This document shows, piece after piece, positions 4,503-14,240 of a stretch of 32,654 bases of DNA; position 1 is the first letter of the stretch, and every line of letters starts with the position of its first letter. The notes beneath the pieces are model-generated. The model ran no database searches, had not been told where the DNA came from, and saw only the letters and a program-made list of their open reading frames with translations. This DNA comes from Spirochaetota bacterium. Its GTDB lineage: Bacteria; Spirochaetota; UBA4802; UBA5550. Position numbers and translations under genes: made by a program. The stretch lies in NCBI GenBank assembly GCA_012730035.1, contig JAAYBQ010000031.1, forward strand, positions 1-32,654. Direction: 5' to 3'.

Positions 4503-5198
4503 CTATTTAGTCTCTCCTTTATTCTCAAATCCCATGCCCCACGCGTCGCTCTGGTTGTCCTTGTACTTGTCGCGAACAGTGGCTGTAATGTCATCTACAT
4601 AGAAGTACTGCCAGATCGGTATGCGGGTGTCATTGGCCGGTTTGTAGAGAATGTATAGAATCCTGAACGCCTTTTCCTGTTCAAGGTATTCGTTCTGCTG
4701 CTTAACCTTGTGCCTTATGGGGGCTGTCAGTTTTCTCCAGCCGTTAAAGTTCAGCTTGCCGAATGATATGTTGTGCACCGTTCCCTCTACGTCCTGGACA
4801 ACAAACTGCAGTTCCCCTGAGAAATTCTTGCCGTAGATCCAGACGCTCATGCTCTTGCAGTATTTTTTTATAACCAGCTCCTTCGCAGGGATTATGCGGA
4901 AAATATCACCGCGCCTTCCGAAGCATTTTACCCCCAGGTATTTCTTTGAATTGTTATACTGCGCCGGGAACTGGTCCCTTATCTGCAGATCGGCCACCTG
5001 CTGGTTTGTTATGTCGAATTTAAGGTTTTTATCCGGTGAATAGGATGTTGATTCAAAATCCTCGAGCACTTCTTCGCTGTATATCTGCTGCACAACGCTG
5101 TCATTGTCGTGTTTATTGCCCCCGTTGTTGTTCCCCTCCTGTGAAAAAACCGGTGAAAGGAAAAGGGCCAGAACCATAAGTGACATGAATTTTTTCAT
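4503..5198 (-). CDS. flaA: Flagellar filament outer layer protein, FlaA family
   Basis: A 231-residue exported protein with signal peptide (MKKFMSLMVLALFLSPVFS, cut before QEG). The mature part shows the FlaA pattern: VLEDFES (about 44-50), a central SVWIYGKNFSGELQFVVQD, then VHNISFGKLNFNGWRKL and, later, YFYVDDI and a C-terminal DAWGM. In spirochaetes FlaA proteins coat the periplasmic flagellar core filament and influence its shape. The length is nearer to Leptospira FlaA2-type proteins than to the longer Treponema FlaA; this comparison is from memory. The ribosome site GGAGG is well placed. It is transcribed alone from a strong promoter and converges with the ABC ATPase gene with a 3-base gap. 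Confidence 0.85.
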   Translation of the reverse strand: MKKFMSLMVLALFLSPVFSQEGNNNGGNKHDNDSVVQQIYSEEVLEDFESTSYSPDKNLKFDITNQQVADLQIRDQFPAQYNNSKKYLGVKCFGRRGDIFRIIPAKELVIKKYCKSMSVWIYGKNFSGELQFVVQDVEGTVHNISFGKLNFNGWRKLTAPIRHKVKQQNEYLEQEKAFRILYILYKPANDTRIPIWQYFYVDDITATVRDKYKDNQSDAWGMGFENKGETK

Positions 5199-5421: not shown

Positions 5422-5802
5422 ATGAACAACGGCAGCAGAAAAGAGCTCAGGTATTCAGCCAGTATACTCAATCCCGACAGGGTATATGTTGAAATTGATA
5501 CCGGTGTAAAGATGCGGGGCAACATTATCGATCTTTCGGCAGGGGGGCTCGCGTTTGAAATTACCGGTGAAGGTGATGGACTGAGGGATCTTGACCGCTT
5601 AAGGGATTATTCCATGGTTATTGTTATTGACAGCCTTAGGATCGTCGCGGGCGTACAGAAGGTCTGGGGTTTTTTCAGGGATCTGGAACCGGGGCAGCTG
5701 TACCTGTCGGGCGTCAGTTTCGGGAATGTCTCAAGCGATGACAGGCTTAAGCTGTACGGCGTAATTGAGAGAATCAGGGATCTTTCTCTGACCGGTTCGT
5801 GA
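5422..5802 (+). CDS. PilZ domain protein, probable c-di-GMP receptor
   Basis: A 126-residue protein that is essentially one PilZ domain. The two c-di-GMP-contact motifs are visible: RKELR (residues 6-10, RxxxR) and DLSAGG (37-42, [D/N]xSxxG). With both present, ligand binding is likely, as established for this family. There is no membrane segment. It is the first gene of the operon leading into the repeat protein and MlaEF (28-base gap to the next start), so c-di-GMP may act on envelope lipid transport here; that is inference from order. The ribosome site is weak, so the start depends on domain fit and on the promoter position. Confidence 0.85.
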   Translation: MNNGSRKELRYSASILNPDRVYVEIDTGVKMRGNIIDLSAGGLAFEITGEGDGLRDLDRLRDYSMVIVIDSLRIVAGVQKVWGFFRDLEPGQLYLSGVSFGNVSSDDRLKLYGVIERIRDLSLTGS

Positions 5803-5829: not shown

Positions 5830-7470
5830 ATGAGAACACTGATAATCAGAGCGGCAGGCATACTGCTTGTTGTATATGCACTGACCCCGGCCGCTTATGC
5901 TTTTGAAAGCAGGCCCTCTCCCGATGACACGGACTGGGCCTGGTTCTTCTATGAAAAAACAACCGGTTCCGGAATGTACAGCGTTGTATGGCGGCCGTTC
6001 TACATGAATACTGTCTCACCTGAACTTGAATTCGATGCCTCCCTTATGCCATTCATCTTTACGCGGTACCGCACTGAAAGATATGACAGGGTAACCGCGT
6101 TTCTGGGCCTTTACAGCTCTGTTGATTACAGGCATCCCGACGGAAATGACGATTATGACAACGGGCTTTTCCCGCTTTTTATGCATGGCGAGGGTACTGC
6201 TGATTCAGACGACTACCTTCTTGTTTTTCCCGTGGGGGGAACAATGAGGGGCAAGTTTGCCTATGACAGGATATCTCCATGGGTGTTCCCCGGGTTCCTG
6301 CTTTTTTTTGTCTATCCGCCTTCGGGCATATTTACAATGCATACCCTGCTGCTGGGGATCGCTTCGCTGGTACCGGTTTACACCGGATTTGAAGACGGCG
6401 AGTACAGGGGCACTGCGCTGTTCTGGCCCCTTGTGGCATGGGGGGGCGATGAATCGGGTAAAAGAAAAACCTTCAGGATTCTTCCTTTCTACTCGCACAA
6501 GAGCAAGGAGGGATGGTACGACACATATTCATATTTTATGCTTATCAATTACAGAGAGATCTTTCTGCGGGATGACACCAGGTACACATTCTTTTTCTTT
6601 CCGTTTTACGGCAGAAAGTGGAGCCGGGAGGGGAGGGTCTCGTCGCACACCCTGCTCTGGCCTTTTTTTTCGTGGGGTTACGACAGCGTAAGCAACGACA
6701 GGGAGTACAACCTGCCGTGGCCGCTTGTGCAGATACGGGACTGTGACAATCCCAAAATAAAGAAAAGGATATTCTTCCCGTTTTACGGCCGTTATACTGC
6801 CGAAAACTATGAAAGCTTTTTCGTAACGCCGCTCTATTTCAGAATAACAGACCGCAGTGCCGATGTGACTGCCGCCTATAATGTTTCTTTCTTTCTGTTC
6901 TGGTATTTTAAACGCGATTATCAATACAGACATGAATTCTACGGAAACTCGTGGCGTTATTTCAAGATATGGCCGCTTATGCAGGTTGAGTGGAGTGATT
7001 CCGGTTTTTATTCGCTGAATGTGCTCTCCCTTCTTCCCTTCAGGGATACAGCGGGTTACGAGAGGATGTACCAGCCATTCTGGAGCCTCTTTGAGTACAG
7101 GGTAAAACCTGATGGAGTTAAATATATGGGCATACTTATGAGGACATACTACCAGGTATGGAACGATGATTTTATCAAGATAAAGATTCCCCTGCTGCTT
7201 GACTACACCAGCAGGGGGGGCGCCGTAACCGAGTTCTGCATGCTGGCGCGGGCATTCGGCTACGAGAGTGAAGCTGATGCCACTTATATGCGCATACTGT
7301 GGATACCGTTCAGGATAGGTAAGGGCACTGGTATTCAGGCTGCTGAAGGTGTAGGGGAAGCCGACGATAACGTGAAAGATATTTATGCGGACCTGTATTT
7401 TAATACCGGGCACGGGAATTTCCGCAGTGGCAGTATGGACCGTAATATTTATGCGAGCGCGAGGTTCTGA
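5830..7470 (+). CDS. Exported aromatic-rich repeat protein of unknown function, in mla operon
   Basis: A 546-residue protein with a signal peptide (cut after AYA, residue 24). The rest is rich in F, W, Y and P and built on a repeat of about 20 residues centred on [FWL]P[FL][FYW]: WRPFY (54), MPF (73), FPLF (114), FPV (133), FPG (153), FWPL (198), LPFY (218), FPFYGR (257), LWPFF (276), PWPL (296), FPFYGR (316), IWPL (380), LLPF (401), QPFW (415). No known domain is recognised. Alternating short aromatic strands and polar turns suggest a beta-rich outer-membrane or periplasmic protein. It lies between PilZ and mlaE (1-base gap to mlaE), so it may be the outer-membrane side of the Mla system. 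TGGAG sits about 10 bases before the ATG. Confidence 0.85.
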   Translation: MRTLIIRAAGILLVVYALTPAAYAFESRPSPDDTDWAWFFYEKTTGSGMYSVVWRPFYMNTVSPELEFDASLMPFIFTRYRTERYDRVTAFLGLYSSVDYRHPDGNDDYDNGLFPLFMHGEGTADSDDYLLVFPVGGTMRGKFAYDRISPWVFPGFLLFFVYPPSGIFTMHTLLLGIASLVPVYTGFEDGEYRGTALFWPLVAWGGDESGKRKTFRILPFYSHKSKEGWYDTYSYFMLINYREIFLRDDTRYTFFFFPFYGRKWSREGRVSSHTLLWPFFSWGYDSVSNDREYNLPWPLVQIRDCDNPKIKKRIFFPFYGRYTAENYESFFVTPLYFRITDRSADVTAAYNVSFFLFWYFKRDYQYRHEFYGNSWRYFKIWPLMQVEWSDSGFYSLNVLSLLPFRDTAGYERMYQPFWSLFEYRVKPDGVKYMGILMRTYYQVWNDDFIKIKIPLLLDYTSRGGAVTEFCMLARAFGYESEADATYMRILWIPFRIGKGTGIQAAEGVGEADDNVKDIYADLYFNTGHGNFRSGSMDRNIYASARF

Positions 7471-7471
7471 T

Positions 7472-8290
7472 ATGCCCGGTAATTTCAGGATATCATATCG
7501 TAGAAGTTTTATGAACAGCGTGTCTGCGCTGGGTTCAAGGCTTTTATACCAGGTGAATTTTACGGGGTTCACTCTTATTCTTATTTTTAATGCGATCATT
7601 CAGATGCGGCATGCATTTTTCAAGCGCAGGGAGATTATCAAGCAGATGTACGTCTCTGGCGTTAAGAGCATGGTGGTGTGCGGCATAGTGGCACTGCTCG
7701 GCGGCATGATCTTTTCGCTTCAGATAGGGCTCCAGCTGAAGACATACGGGCAAAGTGATTTTGTTCCCACAATGATCATAAACGTGATGAACAAGGAGCT
7801 GGGAGCCCTTCTTACGGGGATAATACTGACAGCTTTTTCGGGCGCTGCCATGGCTGCCGAAGTGGGAACCATGAAGGTCTCGGAGGAGATAGATGCGCTT
7901 GAGATGATGTCTATTAACCCGGTCAGGTATCTTGTGATGCCGCGTATGGCCGCGATGATGCTAATGATGCCGGCGCTTACTATATACACTGTCATACTCG
8001 GCGTGTTAGGCGCAGCAGTAATCTGTTATTTCCAGCTCGGGATGTCCATGGAGTCATACTTCAGGCGTATCGTTGAATCTATCTGGTTCAAGGACATGTA
8101 TGTGTGCATGCTCAAGAGCCTGGTTTTTGCGGTGATAATATCATCCATAAGCTGCGCTAACGGTCTCAAGGCGGGTAATGGAGCGCTCGGTGTGGGGCAT
8201 GCGACGCGTGTGTCCGTTGTTTCGTCGCTCCTGATGATTCTTGTTTCGGGTTATTTTATAACGTCGCTGTTTTACGGGGGATTTTTATGA
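7472..8290 (+). CDS. mlaE: MlaE-family lipid ABC transporter permease
   Basis: A 272-residue inner-membrane permease of the MlaE/YrbE/TGD1 family, moving lipids between inner membrane and periplasm together with MlaF and MlaD. Several hydrophobic spans are visible, with the family motif EEIDALEMMSINPVRYLVMPR-like stretch in the middle (the EEIDALxxM portion is diagnostic) and a C-terminal NGLKAGNGALGVG segment. I chose the ATG at 7472, one base after the upstream stop, with GAGG eight bases before it; an in-frame ATG at 7385 would add 29 residues that lie inside the previous gene and look non-native. It overlaps mlaF by 4 bases (ATGA). Confidence 0.93.
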   Translation: MPGNFRISYRRSFMNSVSALGSRLLYQVNFTGFTLILIFNAIIQMRHAFFKRREIIKQMYVSGVKSMVVCGIVALLGGMIFSLQIGLQLKTYGQSDFVPTMIINVMNKELGALLTGIILTAFSGAAMAAEVGTMKVSEEIDALEMMSINPVRYLVMPRMAAMMLMMPALTIYTVILGVLGAAVICYFQLGMSMESYFRRIVESIWFKDMYVCMLKSLVFAVIISSISCANGLKAGNGALGVGHATRVSVVSSLLMILVSGYFITSLFYGGFL

Positions 8291-9030
8291 TTGAGCTTGT
8301 TAATGTTCATAAATCCTTCAATGATAAAAAAATACTCGATTCGGTCTCTATAAGAATTGAAAAGGGTGAAACATTTGTAATAATAGGTCAGTCAGGTGTG
8401 GGCAAGACCACCATACTGCGTCACATAGCAGGTTTCTTTGACCCTGACCATGGCGATGTATTCATTGACAGCGAGAGGATGAACGGCGCGGGTACGGGTA
8501 AAAAGGCGAGGCTGCGTGAAAGGATGGGCTTTCTGTTCCAGTCCGGGGCACTTATAAACTGGCTTAATGTCAGGGAGAATGTTGCGCTTCCACTGGTTGA
8601 ACACAAACTGGGGAGCATCAGCGAGATTAACCGGATAGTTGACGAAAAGCTTGAACTGTTGCAGCTGCTGGATTCTGCGGATAAAATGCCCGCTGACATA
8701 AGCGGCGGCATGAAAAAAAGAGCGGGACTGGCGCGTGCCATTGTACGCAACCCGTCGATAATCCTTTACGATGAGCCCACTTCGGGCCTGGACCCGGTAA
8801 TGTCCGCAAGGATAAACGACATGATAACCAGGATGAAGTCTGAACTGGGTGTAACCAGTGTTGTCGTCACTCATGACATGGTAAGCGCGTATAATATTGC
8901 TGACCGCATCGCAATGCTGTACAACGGAAGCATTATAGAATGCGGAACTCCTGAACAGATACGTGGGAGCAGCAGTCCCATTGTACGGCAGTTTATTGAA
9001 GGTTCACTTGGCGGTCCCATAGACGTGTAG
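8287..9030 (+). CDS. mlaF: MlaF-family lipid ABC transporter ATPase
   Basis: A 247-residue ATPase that powers the MlaE permease. Walker A GQSGVGKTT (34-42), Q-loop Q85 in GFLFQSGAL, signature ISGGM (138-142), Walker B IILYDEP (158-164) and the histidine H196 in VVVTHDM are all present. The FQSGALIN segment and the signature ISGGMKKR are typical of the MlaF branch rather than of sugar or amino-acid importers. The 4-base overlap with mlaE indicates coupled translation. After its stop comes a 477-base gap before mlaD, unusual for this operon type. Confidence 0.94.
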   Translation: MIELVNVHKSFNDKKILDSVSIRIEKGETFVIIGQSGVGKTTILRHIAGFFDPDHGDVFIDSERMNGAGTGKKARLRERMGFLFQSGALINWLNVRENVALPLVEHKLGSISEINRIVDEKLELLQLLDSADKMPADISGGMKKRAGLARAIVRNPSIILYDEPTSGLDPVMSARINDMITRMKSELGVTSVVVTHDMVSAYNIADRIAMLYNGSIIECGTPEQIRGSSSPIVRQFIEGSLGGPIDV

Positions 9031-9060
9031 GTTGATCCTGCTGTTTAATATTCCGGATTG

Positions 9061-9209
9061 GTAATTATTCTTAAAAATACTTTTATTGTCAGAGTTAATT
9101 TCTTAACTGTTTTGTAAAATAAAAAGCTCTATTCCCTCCGCCGCCGAAGGCGGCGGAGGGAAATTAAAACTACTCTACTGCACTAATAAATATTTTTAGG
9201 AATAATTAC
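9061..9209. repeat. Imperfect 149-base palindromic element with central hairpin
   Basis: The left end GTAATTATTCTTAAAAATAC (9061-9080) matches the reverse complement of the right end (9188-9209) at 20 of 22 positions. Between the arms sits the perfect GC hairpin at 9132-9162. Inverted ends, small size, AT-rich body and lack of a frame are what a miniature inverted-repeat element or a structured RNA would show. No target-site duplication was obvious. Confidence 0.55.
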
Positions 9210-9300
9210 TGTTAGTGTAATATTGTGATTTAATTCTTGCCACGCCGGAAACGGCAAGAGGGCAAGACCATTTACTCTGCAAAATGTTTAAGGAATTAAC
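9094..9300. repeat. Inverted pair of GTTAATTCCTTAAC-type boxes, copy 1
   Basis: GTTAATTTCTTAAC (9094-9107) faces TTTAAGGAATTAAC (9287-9300). With the adjoining bases, 24 of 33 positions match between the two arms. The right arm read on the minus strand matches the right arm of the 18758-18863 pair at 24 of 28 positions, so the two loci share a repeat. It interleaves with, rather than nests in, the 9061-9209 palindrome. Confidence 0.55.
9132..9162. terminator. GC-rich perfect hairpin after mlaF, possible terminator
   Basis: TTCCCTCCGCCGCC (9132-9145) pairs perfectly with 9149-9162 across a GAA loop, 14 base pairs. It lies about 100 bases after the mlaF stop. There is no T-run on the plus side (ATTAAAAC follows), while the minus side has an AT-rich flank, so a classic intrinsic terminator is not proven. 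It may equally be the core of the surrounding repeat element. Confidence 0.35.
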
Positions 9301-9301
9301 A

Positions 9302-9331
9302 TTGATTAATTATTGAATAAATTGTTATATT
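9302..9331 (+). promoter_or_regulatory. Candidate promoter for mlaD
   Basis: TTGATT (9302-9307) and TATATT (9326-9331) are 18 bases apart, using the same hexamers as the promoter before the PilZ gene. Transcription would start near 9338, about 170 bases before the mlaD start. It begins directly after the right-hand inverted box ending at 9300. Confidence 0.4.
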
Positions 9332-9507
9332 AAAACAGGATTGATTTCAGGCAGAGTCTCTTATAATCGATCCGATAATGCTGCCTGCCCGTCTACGGTG
9401 GTATTAAAATAGTATCGGGTCATAAAAAAGGATATGCAGAAATTACCGGGTATGTATTTATACGGGGCAAAGCCGGGATAATGTGAATAAAACACACAGG
9501 GATAGTG

Positions 9508-10164
9508 ATGACAAGGTTTAATGAATTCATCGTAGGAGTGGTTTTCTTTTTCGCGATGGGAGTACTGGTATATTTTACGGTAATCAAGGGTGAATTCTTT
9601 GATACGCGTACCTACTACACAATGAGTGTAATATTTGACGAGGTGCAGGGCCTGGCCGAGGGTGATCATGCGCAGGTTAACGGTGTTGAGGGGGGAGTGG
9701 TCACTTCCATAAGACTTCTTGAAGACAGCAGGGTCAGGGTTGTACTGAAGATGCATGTCAACTTCAGGATATATGAAAACTATTCGATTGTAATGAAGAA
9801 CACCACAGCCCTGGGCGGAAGGATAATATCAATAAATCCCGGCAGGCCGGAGGTCGATGGAATTTATTTCAGCGAGATCGAAACAAGGACCGATCTGAGT
9901 GGCGCTTCTCTTGGTGATCCCTTCTCGCTGCTTGCAGAGGTTATACAGGAGAACCGTGACGAGCTGGCAAGTACCATTCTTAATATAAGCCAGTTCGCAG
10001 AAAAGATAAACAAAGGTGACGGCACCATTGCCAGGCTTGTTAACGAAGACACGGTGCATGCCGGCGCGGATAAAACACTCAAACAGGTCAGGGATACAAT
10101 CGAGGATTCGCGTGAACAGGCTCCTGTAACAAGTTTTATCAGGGCTGCCCTGACGTTTTTTTAA
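9508..10164 (+). CDS. mlaD: MlaD-family MCE domain protein
   Basis: A 218-residue protein with one N-terminal membrane anchor (about residues 7-26) and a single MCE domain (about 36-112, with the GLAEGDHAQVNGVEGGVV core). MlaD-type MCE proteins form hexameric rings that carry lipid between MlaE and the periplasm. After the domain comes a helical tail including the common INKGDGTIARLVNED stretch. I chose ATG 9508 with AGGG six bases upstream; a GTG at 9505 is also in frame but too close to it. Separated from mlaF by 477 bases, it may have its own promoter. Its last codons form an intrinsic terminator. Confidence 0.92.
   Translation: MTRFNEFIVGVVFFFAMGVLVYFTVIKGEFFDTRTYYTMSVIFDEVQGLAEGDHAQVNGVEGGVVTSIRLLEDSRVRVVLKMHVNFRIYENYSIVMKNTTALGGRIISINPGRPEVDGIYFSEIETRTDLSGASLGDPFSLLAEVIQENRDELASTILNISQFAEKINKGDGTIARLVNEDTVHAGADKTLKQVRDTIEDSREQAPVTSFIRAALTFF
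10139..10162 (+). terminator. Intrinsic terminator built into the 3' end of mlaD
   Basis: TCAGGGCTGCCCTGA (10139-10153) is a 6-base-pair stem with a CTG loop, followed by CG and seven T (10156-10162). The T-run encodes the two final phenylalanines and the first base of the TAA stop, so terminator and coding sequence overlap. Confidence 0.72.
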
Positions 10165-10374: not shown

Positions 10375-13300
10375 GTGCCGAAAAGAGAAGATCTGAAAAA
10401 AATAATGATTATTGGTTCAGGCCCCATAGTTATAGGGCAGGCGTGTGAATTCGATTATTCAGGTTCGCAGGCGTGCAAGTCGCTTAAAGAGGAGGGGTAC
10501 GAGGTTGTGCTGGTCAACTCCAATCCGGCCACGATCATGACCGATCCGGAACTTGCTGACAGGACCTACATAGAGCCGCTCTCACCTGACGTACTGAGCG
10601 CAATAATTGAAAAGGAGCGGCCCGATGCGATACTGCCGACCGTTGGAGGACAGACAGCTCTTAACCTGACCATGAAGCTGGGCGAACTTGGTGTGCTTGA
10701 AAAGTATGGTGTTGAACTTATAGGCGCCAATATCGATTCCATCAGAAAGGCAGAGGACAGAGACCTGTTCAAAAAGGCCATGCTGAGCATAGGGCTCGAT
10801 GTTCCCGAATCGGGACTTGCATCGTCAGTAGACGAAGCGCTAGAGATATGCAGCAGGATAAAACTGCCCATAATAATAAGGCCGGCGTTTACACTTGGCG
10901 GAGCGGGCGGGAACATTGTTTATAACAGGGAGGACTTTGTCGACCTTGTCAAGAAGGGACTTGACGAGTCCCCCATAAACCAGGTGCTCCTTGAGGAGTC
11001 GGTCATAGGCTGGAAGGAGTTTGAGCTCGAGGTGATGCGTGACACCAGGGATAATGTTGTTATAATATGTTCTATTGAAAACTTTGATCCCATGGGTGTT
11101 CACACCGGAGATTCAATTACCGTGGCGCCTCAGCAGACGCTGACTGACGCGGAGTACCAGAACCTGCGTGACATCGGGATTAAAATAATCAGGGAGATCG
11201 GTGTGGATACGGGCGGTTCCAATATCCAGTTCGCGATAAATCCCGTTGACGGCAGAGTCATTATAATTGAAATGAACCCGCGCGTAAGCCGCAGTTCGGC
11301 GCTGGCATCAAAGGCGACCGGTTTTCCGATCGCAAAGATCGCGGCCAAGCTGGCAGTGGGCCTTACGCTTGACGAAATTTCGAACGACATTACCCGCGAA
11401 ACACCCGCATCATTTGAACCGACTATTGATTACGTGGTAGTCAAGACGCCCAGGTGGGCATTCGAAAAGTTCGAGGGCGCCGATTCAAGGCTGGGCACGC
11501 AGATGAAGTCTGTGGGTGAGGCCATGTCAATCGGGCGCACATTCAAGGAGTCATTTCAAAAAGCACTGCGTTCACTTGAGATAGACAGGTTCGGATTCGG
11601 TTCGGACGGCAACCTTAAGCTTGAACGCTACCTGGACTCACTTCCTGAAGATGAAAGGAGAGCCGCGTTCGAAAAGGAATTTACCCGTCCGGGGGCCGAG
11701 CGCGTGTTCTACATCCACTCTGCCATGAAACGCGGGGCAAGCGTTGAATGGATAGCCGGATTTACCGGCATAGACCCGTGGTTCCTGAACCAGTTGAAAG
11801 AACTGGTTGACGCAGAGGATGTTTTTGAATCGGAGTACAGAAAATCCGGTCTTGACATAACAGCAGTAAGGCGAATGAAGGCGCTTGGTTTTTCTGACAG
11901 GCAGCTGGGATTCATGATGAACAGAAAAAATCTTGCCGAACTTTATTCAAAGGGCCCACTCTACCAGAAGAAGTATTCCATGACGCTCAGGATGGCAGAA
12001 CGCGAGGTCCGCCAGTTCAGAAAGGAGCACGGCCTGGTACCGGGATTCAGGGTCGTTGATACATGCGGGGGAGAGTTCGAGGCTTACACACCTTATTACT
12101 ATTCCTCTTATGATCCTGGTAACGAATCTGTCCCAACAGACTGCAAAAAGGTGATGATACTTGGTGGAGGCCCCAACAGGATAGGTCAGGGGATAGAGTT
12201 CGATTACTGCTGCTGCCACGCGTCATTCGCGCTGCGCGAGGAGAATGTCGGGTCGATTATGGTCAATTCGAATCCTGAAACTGTTTCTACCGATTATGAT
12301 ACTTCTGACAGGCTTTATTTTGAGCCGCTTACTCTGGAGGATATACTTCATATATATGAGCTTGAAAAACCGGACGGTGTTATTGTCCAGTTCGGAGGTC
12401 AGACACCTCTTCGTCTTGCCAGGGCGCTTGAGGAGAATGGCGTCAGAATAATAGGAACCTCGCCGGATGCAATAGACAGGGCAGAGGACAGGGAACGGTT
12501 CTCGAAGGTGGTCGAAAAGCTGAAACTTAAACAGCCCGAGAACGGCATTGCTTTTAACCAGGAGGACGCAGTTAAAATCGCGACCGCTATAGGTTATCCC
12601 GTGCTTGTGCGCCCATCCTACGTGCTGGGTGGAAGGGCCATGGCCATAATATACAACGAGGCGAGTCTGCAGAACTATATCAATACCGCGGTCGAACTCT
12701 CGCCGGAGCATCCCATACTTGTGGACAGATTCCTTGAAGACGCTGTCGAGGTTGACGTTGATGCTATATGTGACGGGGATGATGTTTACATCGGCGCGAT
12801 AATGGAACACGTTGAGGAGGCCGGCATACACTCCGGCGATTCAGCCTGTATTATTCCGCCCATGACAATTCCGCAACATCTACAGGATCGGATTATTGAA
12901 CAGACAAAGGCTCTTGCGCATGAACTGAAGGTCATAGGCCTGCTGAACATTCAGTATGCAATACAGGGAGGCGAGCTTTTTATACTTGAGGTTAATCCGC
13001 GTGCGTCAAGGACTGTGCCATTTGTTTCAAAAACAACTGGTGTTTCTCTCGCGAAGATCGCACTCAAGGTAATGCTGGGCAGAAAGCTCAGGGATTTCGG
13101 GCTTACTGACATGAAGAGGTTCCCGTTCGTCAGTGTCAAGGAGGCGGTACTTCCTTTCGACAAGTTCCCCGGGGTTGACACTATTCTTTCGCCCGAAATG
13201 AAATCCACCGGCGAGGTTATGGGCATATCATATAATTTTGGTGAATCCTACTTCAAGGCTGCACTTGCAGCGGGGGATAAACTTCCTATGGGGGGTACCG

Positions 13301-13698
13301 TATTCTTCAGCCTTAACGACAACCACAAGGCGCAGATGCTGGAGGATGTGAGGAGTCTGAGCGTGCATGGATTTAATATAATCGCCACAAAGGGAACGTC
13401 CAGGTTCTTTAATGATAACGGCATAAAGTGTGAGCATGTCTTCAAGGTGAACGAAGGGAGGCCTAATGTTGTTGACAGAATCAAGAACGGAGATGTACAG
13501 TTTGTAATAAATACACCCCTGGGCAAGGTAACGCGCGATGATGCTTACCTGATAAGACAGGCCGCAGTACGCTACCACATACCCTCGACGACTACGGTCG
13601 CGGGCGCAAAGGCTGCGATAAACGGCCTTCTTCATATAAAGCATACGGGGGAACTTTCGGTCAAGCCTGTTCAGGAATACTACAAAGAGGTGGAATGA
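10375..13698 (+). CDS. carB: Carbamoyl-phosphate synthase large subunit
   Basis: A 1107-residue enzyme of full length that makes carbamoyl phosphate from ammonia (released from glutamine by CarA), bicarbonate and two ATP, feeding pyrimidines and arginine. The two homologous halves are clear: the first opens with [20 protein letters not shown], the second near residue 597 with [15 protein letters not shown], each with an ATP-grasp domain (for example [13 protein letters not shown] near 171). A methylglyoxal-synthase-like regulatory domain closes the protein from about residue 965. Translation starts at GTG. carA is not in the window. It overlaps pyrR at the stop, so the pair is an operon. Confidence 0.97.
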
Positions 13699-14240
13699 TG
13701 GCTATTGAAAAAACAATTCTCAGTTCATCCGATATTGAAAGAATTATCAGTGACACCGCCGGCCAGGTAGTGCGTGATTTTCCCGATATGGAAAGTTTTG
13801 CCATTGTGGGAATACAGACGCGTGGTGTTGAACTTGCCGCGAGAATAAAAGAGAAGATCGAAAAATTAATCGGAAAGCCTGTAAAGAACGGGACGCTTGA
13901 CATTACATTCTACAGGGATGATATTACAACCAGGGGTAAACTCCCGGTGCTTAAAGAGACCCTTATTGAATTCAATATCAATAACAAAACAATACTTCTT
14001 GTAGATGATGTGCTGTTTACGGGAAGGACCACCAAGGCCGCAATTGAAACCCTTATGGCCTTTGGCAGACCTAATATGATAAGATTTTTTGTACTGGTAG
14101 ACAGGGGGGGCAGGGAGCTCCCCATTCAGGCGGACTACTGCGGGCATAAAGTGCTGACCACTGCCGAAGATCTTGTAAAGGTAAGGCTCAGGGATACGGA
14201 TGGCGTTGAGGACTCGGTTGTACTTGTGACTGAAAATTAA
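13698..14240 (+). CDS. pyrR: PyrR regulator / uracil phosphoribosyltransferase
   Basis: A 180-residue protein of the PyrR family, which senses UMP/UTP and controls pyr genes by binding mRNA, and may also act as a uracil phosphoribosyltransferase. The PRPP loop LLVDDVLFTGRTT (around residues 100-112) and the upstream FYRDD and VGIQTRG segments are typical. Two adjacent ATG codons exist (13695 and 13698); the second has GAGG seven bases before it. Position directly after carB agrees with pyrimidine control. I could not see a PyrR-binding attenuator in the carB leader, so how it regulates here is open. Confidence 0.93.
   Translation: MAIEKTILSSSDIERIISDTAGQVVRDFPDMESFAIVGIQTRGVELAARIKEKIEKLIGKPVKNGTLDITFYRDDITTRGKLPVLKETLIEFNINNKTILLVDDVLFTGRTTKAAIETLMAFGRPNMIRFFVLVDRGGRELPIQADYCGHKVLTTAEDLVKVRLRDTDGVEDSVVLVTEN

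Follow-up and report, generated by a model that had tools for sequence, protein, structure and literature searches.

The window analysed here is the whole 32,654-nucleotide stretch of contig JAAYBQ010000031.1, and all coordinates refer to it. An open reading frame at 5830..7470 (+) encodes a protein of 546 amino acids, designated REP (repeat protein), which heads an operon for an MCE transporter. Its delimitation is based on the reading frame, on the homologues and on the lack of a known family; the frame is real and conserved. The permease gene mlaE (7472..8290, +; PF02405, E = 4.2e-66; TIGR00056) starts 1 bp after REP and overlaps by 4 bp the gene of an MlaF-type ATPase (8287..9030, +), identified by PF00005 (E = 1.6e-29) and by its position in the operon. 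A short MlaD of 219 amino acids is encoded at 9505..10164 (+; PF02470, E = 1.6e-11), and comprises a transmembrane segment, the MCE domain, one helical repeat and the C-terminal motif EDSREQAPVTSFIRAALTFF. The gene order is therefore REP-mlaE-mlaF-mlaD, with the mlaE, ATPase and MCE genes adjacent and co-oriented as in an MCE/Mla operon. The first-pass annotation of REP made no mention of this operon directly downstream, which is the most informative fact about the locus.

The gap between mlaF and mlaD (9031-9504) is 474 bp long in the window and about 40-190 bp in most relatives. It carries a hairpin at 9134-9160 with perfect 12-bp arms, CCCTCCGCCGCC GAA GGCGGCGGAGGG (-30.8 kcal/mol, z = -6.2), which could represent either a small mobile hairpin element or an attenuator inside the operon. 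Just upstream of REP lies a gene for a PilZ-like protein (5422..5802, +), assigned from synteny and from a weak PF07238 match that falls under the cut-off (E = 0.0054). It is the upstream neighbour of REP in several relatives too, and its product probably stands outside the transporter machine. A divergent gene upstream of the operon encodes a FlaA-like secreted protein (4503-5198, minus strand; PF04620, E = 2.1e-13) and is kept in most members of the order. On the other side, carB and pyrR follow the mla operon (10375-14240), an order found in many relatives.

The REP polypeptide and its proline repeat

REP begins with a predicted signal peptide, MRTLIIRAAGILLVVYALTPAAYA (5830..5901, +), with an AYA cleavage motif after residue 24. 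Read from the sequence, this is a typical cleavable signal, and REP is accordingly classed as a secreted protein. AlphaFold2 (AF2) places a helix at residues 2-18 of this region, followed by a low-confidence linker; a signal peptide had also been claimed at first pass.

The same annotation had described a repeat of about 20 residues built on the motif [FWL]P[FL][FYW]. All thirteen prolines that it listed are present (residues 56, 74, 115, 134, 154, 182, 200, 219, 258, 278, 298, 317 and 334), and FPFYGR does occur twice, at residues 257 and 316, 59 residues apart. In its strict form the motif accounts for only five sites, because the sites originally read were looser, yet five is still far above the number in shuffled sequences (mean 0.2, maximum 3 in 5000). 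A looser pattern, hydrophobic-P-hydrophobic-hydrophobic, occurs 11 times versus a shuffle mean of 1.9 and a maximum of 8. The period stands as well: in the REP sequence taken alone, neighbouring prolines lie 17-21 residues apart more often than expected (p = 0.004), and the prolines conserved in the family give 10 such spacings where 2.1 are expected (0 of 20,000 random placements). P56, P74, P134, P200, P382 and P403 are invariant across 38 homologues. The repeat also extends past the sites first described, with prolines at 382, 403, 416, 454 and 493, and ends near residue 498. The single step of 28 residues, from 154 to 182, is due to an insert of about 25 residues that is missing in distant homologues; without it the step is about 20. 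Aromatic residues (FWY) make up 22% of the protein.

REP was initially reported as unrecognised, and this description holds. Neither the single sequence nor a profile matched any family in Pfam, NCBIfam, PHROGs or the PDB, and the profile searches thus yielded no confident known-family match of the kind that the first-pass annotation had named as its refutation. Two Pfam matches, Claudin_3 (E = 0.13) and DUF468 (E = 0.12), were dropped since they fall under the cut-off and concern single members only. An identity with MlaA, MlaC or PqiC/ABC_trans_aux was likewise rejected, as REP gave no match to PF04333, PF05494 or PF03886. In the open-access literature, to which the search was confined (subscription literature lay outside it), no paper evidently describing REP was found; nothing was found there on Leptospira with MlaE and MCE either.

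Distribution and co-inheritance with MlaE

Close homologues of REP, 42-58% identical, occur in 22 of 30 relatives. Over the Spirochaetota as a whole, 63 of 296 genomes have a homologue, with distant members in Leptospirales and including a Leptospiraceae-type branch. One distant branch is very likely Leptospiraceae, since its MlaD lies just above the cut-off of the NCBI Leptospira-specific Mce model (401.2 versus 400 bits). Among 149 Planctomycetota genomes, profile searches detected the family in 75, with strong, long matches in about 70; they also detected it in 38 of 58 genomes (marine MAGs) of a third phylum. The 113 genomes of a Myxococcota group yielded a single clear match, which is divergent, plus nine weak ones.

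MlaE is encoded immediately 3' of REP in all 30 order-level loci, and the median REP-mlaE gap is about 15 bp. REP followed by MlaE-MlaF, and usually by MlaD, is also the arrangement at loci of Leptospirales, of the third phylum and of Planctomycetota, where the domains were confirmed. The order differs at the Myxococcota locus, with REP downstream of MlaE-MlaF. No MlaE gene adjoins REP in 4 of 18 distant spirochaete loci (L041-L044) and in 4 of 13 planctomycete loci (L109-L111 and L113). The latter belong to one planctomycete group, in which REP is unlinked from mla and adjoins a conserved gene that, judged by eye, is metallophosphatase-like.

The genome analysed here has three MlaE paralogues. 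With type-A MlaE defined by an identity of 45% or more, and one broken copy (in G018) counted, this type occurs in every one of the 22 relatives, out of 30, that possess REP and in none of the 8 that do not, which have other MlaE paralogues only. REP is thus inherited together with the MCE system: REP and type-A MlaE are lost or gained as a unit, although the eight REP-less relatives are partly akin to each other.

These data bear on the proposal that REP is an envelope protein merely co-transcribed with the mla genes and has no part in lipid transport. In its favour, some REP orthologues are unlinked from mla, and related repeat proteins of about 800-1900 amino acids exist apart from the mla genes. 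The recurrence of one gene order across at least three phyla and the perfect co-occurrence of REP with its matching MlaE in the 30 relatives argue against it, and we regard it as very unlikely. Long proteins of about 1000-1900 amino acids that are built of the same proline-turn repeat of about 20 residues are found in Planctomycetota and Leptospirales (L133, L134, L135 and L136, on G302:C318, G300:C76, G301:C33 and G366:C702, respectively); some are encoded by tandem genes distant from mla. The proline-turn repeat is therefore used more widely than in a partner of MCE proteins.

The proteins that serve MCE systems elsewhere were sought in 20 relatives, with control genomes giving the expected matches. 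MlaA (PF04333) and PqiC (PF03886) were found in 0 of 20, and MlaC (PF05494) in 1 of 20, the sole match lying outside the REP operon. This match (G000:C355:29616-30026) is on another contig of the window's own assembly and has no equivalent in the other 19 relatives. The contig could be a contaminant, since the assembly is fragmented (442 contigs).

The MlaD proteins linked to REP in this order are about 220 amino acids long and share a conserved, hydrophobic C-terminal tail, EDxREQAPxTSFxRAALxxF. Similar tails are present on REP-linked MlaD in other phyla, for instance REAAPVGTFFQVLAGAF. In the third phylum and in Planctomycetota MlaD is longer, and REP is still kept. The REQAPxTSF tail was not found in the two MlaD paralogues of the same genome that were compared. 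These tail-less MCE paralogues (G000:C245 and G000:C5; L126 and L125) have no adjacent REP, and one of them sits in an MlaE-ATPase-MCE cluster of its own.

Predicted structure of REP

AF2 modelling of REP from 33 sequences (model mbd601f2f58a6) gave a mean pLDDT of 83 and a pTM of 0.67. The repeat region, residues 33-498 (5926..7323, +), is predicted to consist of 44 strands of about 6 residues each, as judged from the list of strands and turns and from co-variation. Two kinds of turn alternate, a Pro-turn (FPF, LWPF, WPL, FFPFYG) and a polar turn, so that a proline is found at every second turn. In the model, then, REP is a repetition of about 22 proline-turn beta-hairpins. A homologue of the third phylum that is only 23% identical is predicted, with lower confidence, to have the same strand pattern (pLDDT 73, pTM 0.47). 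The first-pass suggestion of a beta-rich protein with internal repeats is thus upheld by the alternate Pro-turns of both models.

Co-variation was examined by mean-field DCA on 205 sequences (Neff about 130). The top long-range pairs were dominated by phylogeny, hence only averages over predicted strands were used. These averages support hairpin pairing at both turn types, and of the 43 pairs of neighbouring strands 25 score above the 95th percentile of distant pairs, in co-variation data that are noisy and contaminated by phylogeny. Regular strand pairs, which the first-pass annotation had proposed to look for, are supported both by the AF2 model and by the co-variation of adjacent strands. 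AlphaFold2 and the weak co-variation together support a single continuous antiparallel meander of some 44 short strands.

Two further features depart from the regular pattern. A hydrophobic helical hairpin, residues 154-180 (6289..6369, +; AF2 helices 154-161 and 170-179), is the insert of about 25 residues mentioned above. It is placed exactly at one Pro-turn and is restricted to this order; distant homologues have a normal 20-residue step at this point. The tail, residues 499-546 (7324..7467, +), is of low confidence (pLDDT below 50) and terminates in Phe. Nearly all members of the order have F as the last residue, but the F-ending tail is disordered in the AF2 model and absent from distant homologues.

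Averaged over the family, hydrophobicity is 0.8-0.97 in the positions flanking the proline and 0.06-0.12 at the polar turns. Its maximum spans offsets -4 to +2 around the Pro-turn, and its minimum falls at the polar turns. The hydrophobic surface would therefore be one edge of the predicted ribbon.

Foldseek matched no solved fold at a usable TM-score. The top matches were propellers, OspA and TCP10, with TM-scores below 0.3 in nearly all cases and 0.39 (target length) at best. A parallel beta-solenoid was rejected, since Foldseek returned antiparallel sheets with no solenoid among the top matches, and hairpin co-variation was present at both turns. WD40, NHL and BamB propellers account for many of the matches, at E-values down to 2e-5, and strand length and spacing are similar, which raises the idea that REP is a divergent WD40-like propeller of about 11 blades of 4 short strands. 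The superpositions are poor, however, with TM-scores of about 0.1-0.2 and rmsd above 16 A. Furthermore, one repeat of REP comprises 2 strands (about 20 residues) versus 4 (about 40) in a propeller, and pairing co-variation at both kinds of turn leaves no blade boundary apparent. A propeller is therefore highly improbable. The repeat of REP may represent a new fold.

A further architecture to be considered is that of a beta-barrel spanning the outer membrane, with the MCE system moving lipid through or around REP. REP is secreted, beta-rich and rich in aromatic residues (the 22% FWY noted above), and the C-terminal Phe of nearly all order members recalls substrates of BAM. Moreover, co-variation of the first and last strands is mildly raised; depending on the pair it reaches the 70th-97th percentile, in a range dominated by noise. 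Against this, strands of about 6 residues are short of transmembrane length, and the hydrophobic zone follows one row of turns rather than forming a central belt at mid-strand. The F-ending tail, besides being disordered, is missing in other clades. No barrel leads the Foldseek lists, which contain a single weak match to VDAC, and the planctomycete orthologues are mostly lipoproteins (see below). We thus consider a barrel distinctly unlikely, and the classical closed form that the first-pass annotation had envisaged as one outcome of structure prediction is disfavoured on the same grounds.

Evidence of lipid anchoring is confined to part of the family. Of 70 planctomycete orthologues, examples of which were inspected, 56 have a lipobox-like N-terminus, as against 3 of 36 from the third phylum. 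The lipobox regular expression also fires in 16 of 89 spirochaete loci. As several of those displayed fall inside the hydrophobic stretch, the spirochaete matches are largely spurious, and lipidation is claimed for Planctomycetota only.

REP as a candidate outer component of MCE transporters

The reading that we favour, and hold to be rather likely, is that REP is a fourth, secreted component of an Mla-type MCE lipid ABC transporter, facing a membrane, probably at the outer-membrane side. The predicted ribbon would expose polar hairpin turns on one edge and, on the other, a rail of aromatic and aliphatic Pro-turns (xxWPLF, FFPFYG). Most likely the aromatic rail would lie against a membrane leaflet or dip into it. 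We infer this contact because the helical insert is found at the same edge and because the planctomycete proteins are lipidated; the hydrophobic helical hairpin in this order, or the N-terminal lipid anchor in Planctomycetota, would assist it. REP would then most likely reside on the periplasmic face of the outer membrane, where it would meet the hydrophobic C-terminal tip of the MlaD ring. Lipid would presumably be handed between MlaD and the outer membrane via REP. The role would be that filled elsewhere by MlaA/MlaC or by PqiC, by analogy and not by common ancestry.

A different geometry has REP spanning the periplasm as a lipid slide that joins a short MlaD to the outer membrane, in a role like that of the TamB/YhdP bridges. 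The continuous antiparallel meander and the short REP-linked MlaD of this order (about 220 amino acids) would suit such a bridge, as would the appearance of OspA, a single-layer sheet, and of the TCP10 domain among the Foldseek matches. If extended, about 44 strands at 4.8 A each would measure near 210 A. Against this reading, the hydrophobic surface is an edge and not an interior groove, and REP is retained in the third phylum and in Planctomycetota, where MlaD is longer. We therefore think this alternative unlikely.

Comparison with E. coli Mla (MlaFEDB with MlaC and MlaA) shows that MlaE, MlaF and MlaD in one operon are shared. MlaA, on the other hand, is missing here from 20 of 20 relatives and MlaC from 19 of 20, while REP is unrelated in sequence to the E. 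coli parts and has no counterpart there. Veillonella parvula has a minimal MlaEFD with an elongated MlaD bearing a C-terminal barrel (PMC10665443). In both systems a three-gene core without MlaA/MlaC has to make contact with the outer membrane. The MlaD of Veillonella itself carries the outer-membrane part as a fusion, whereas the operon described here encodes a short MlaD and begins with the gene of a separate repeat protein. PqiC, a toroid-shaped lipoprotein of the outer membrane, tethers PqiAB (PMC10897342). It works there with an MCE protein, and planctomycete REP is a lipoprotein too, but REP is much larger and all beta-hairpin, and PF03886 has no match in the 20 relatives. As for OspA and the TCP10/G-box domain of CPAP, both of them hit by Foldseek, they have in common with the predicted REP structure an antiparallel beta-meander of short strands. 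They differ in lacking sequence similarity, the TM-score is at most 0.39 (target length) or 0.23 (query length), and the function of OspA is unrelated to the role proposed for REP.

MlaEFD is regarded as the ancestral core of inter-membrane phospholipid trafficking (PMC10665443). According to the same survey, the outer-membrane partners known from Proteobacteria are missing in most phyla and their replacement is an open question. The survey found MlaD barrels to be completely absent in the PVC group and suggested that unidentified proteins may be needed; the word "Spirochaet" is not in its text. REP, which is common in that group, makes a good candidate for a protein of this kind. Tentatively, one may go further and suppose REP to be the first member of a new structural class, an amphipathic beta-ribbon that is open, has about 44 strands and bears aromatic proline-turns along one edge, coupling MCE rings to the outer membrane either by lying in a leaflet or by spanning the periplasm. 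This would be the general solution for MlaEFD without MlaA/MlaC in Spirochaetota and Planctomycetota.

REP thus constitutes an unnamed family that tracks MlaE-MlaF-MlaD across at least three phyla and offers a concrete candidate partner for them. The family further suggests that the "mammalian cell entry" protein of leptospires is part of a lipid transporter served by a dedicated partner. Pfam, NCBIfam and the PDB have no entry for REP, which is probably a widespread fourth component of MCE transporters and probably supplies the outer part that the MCE machine would otherwise lack in bacteria that do without the E. coli parts.
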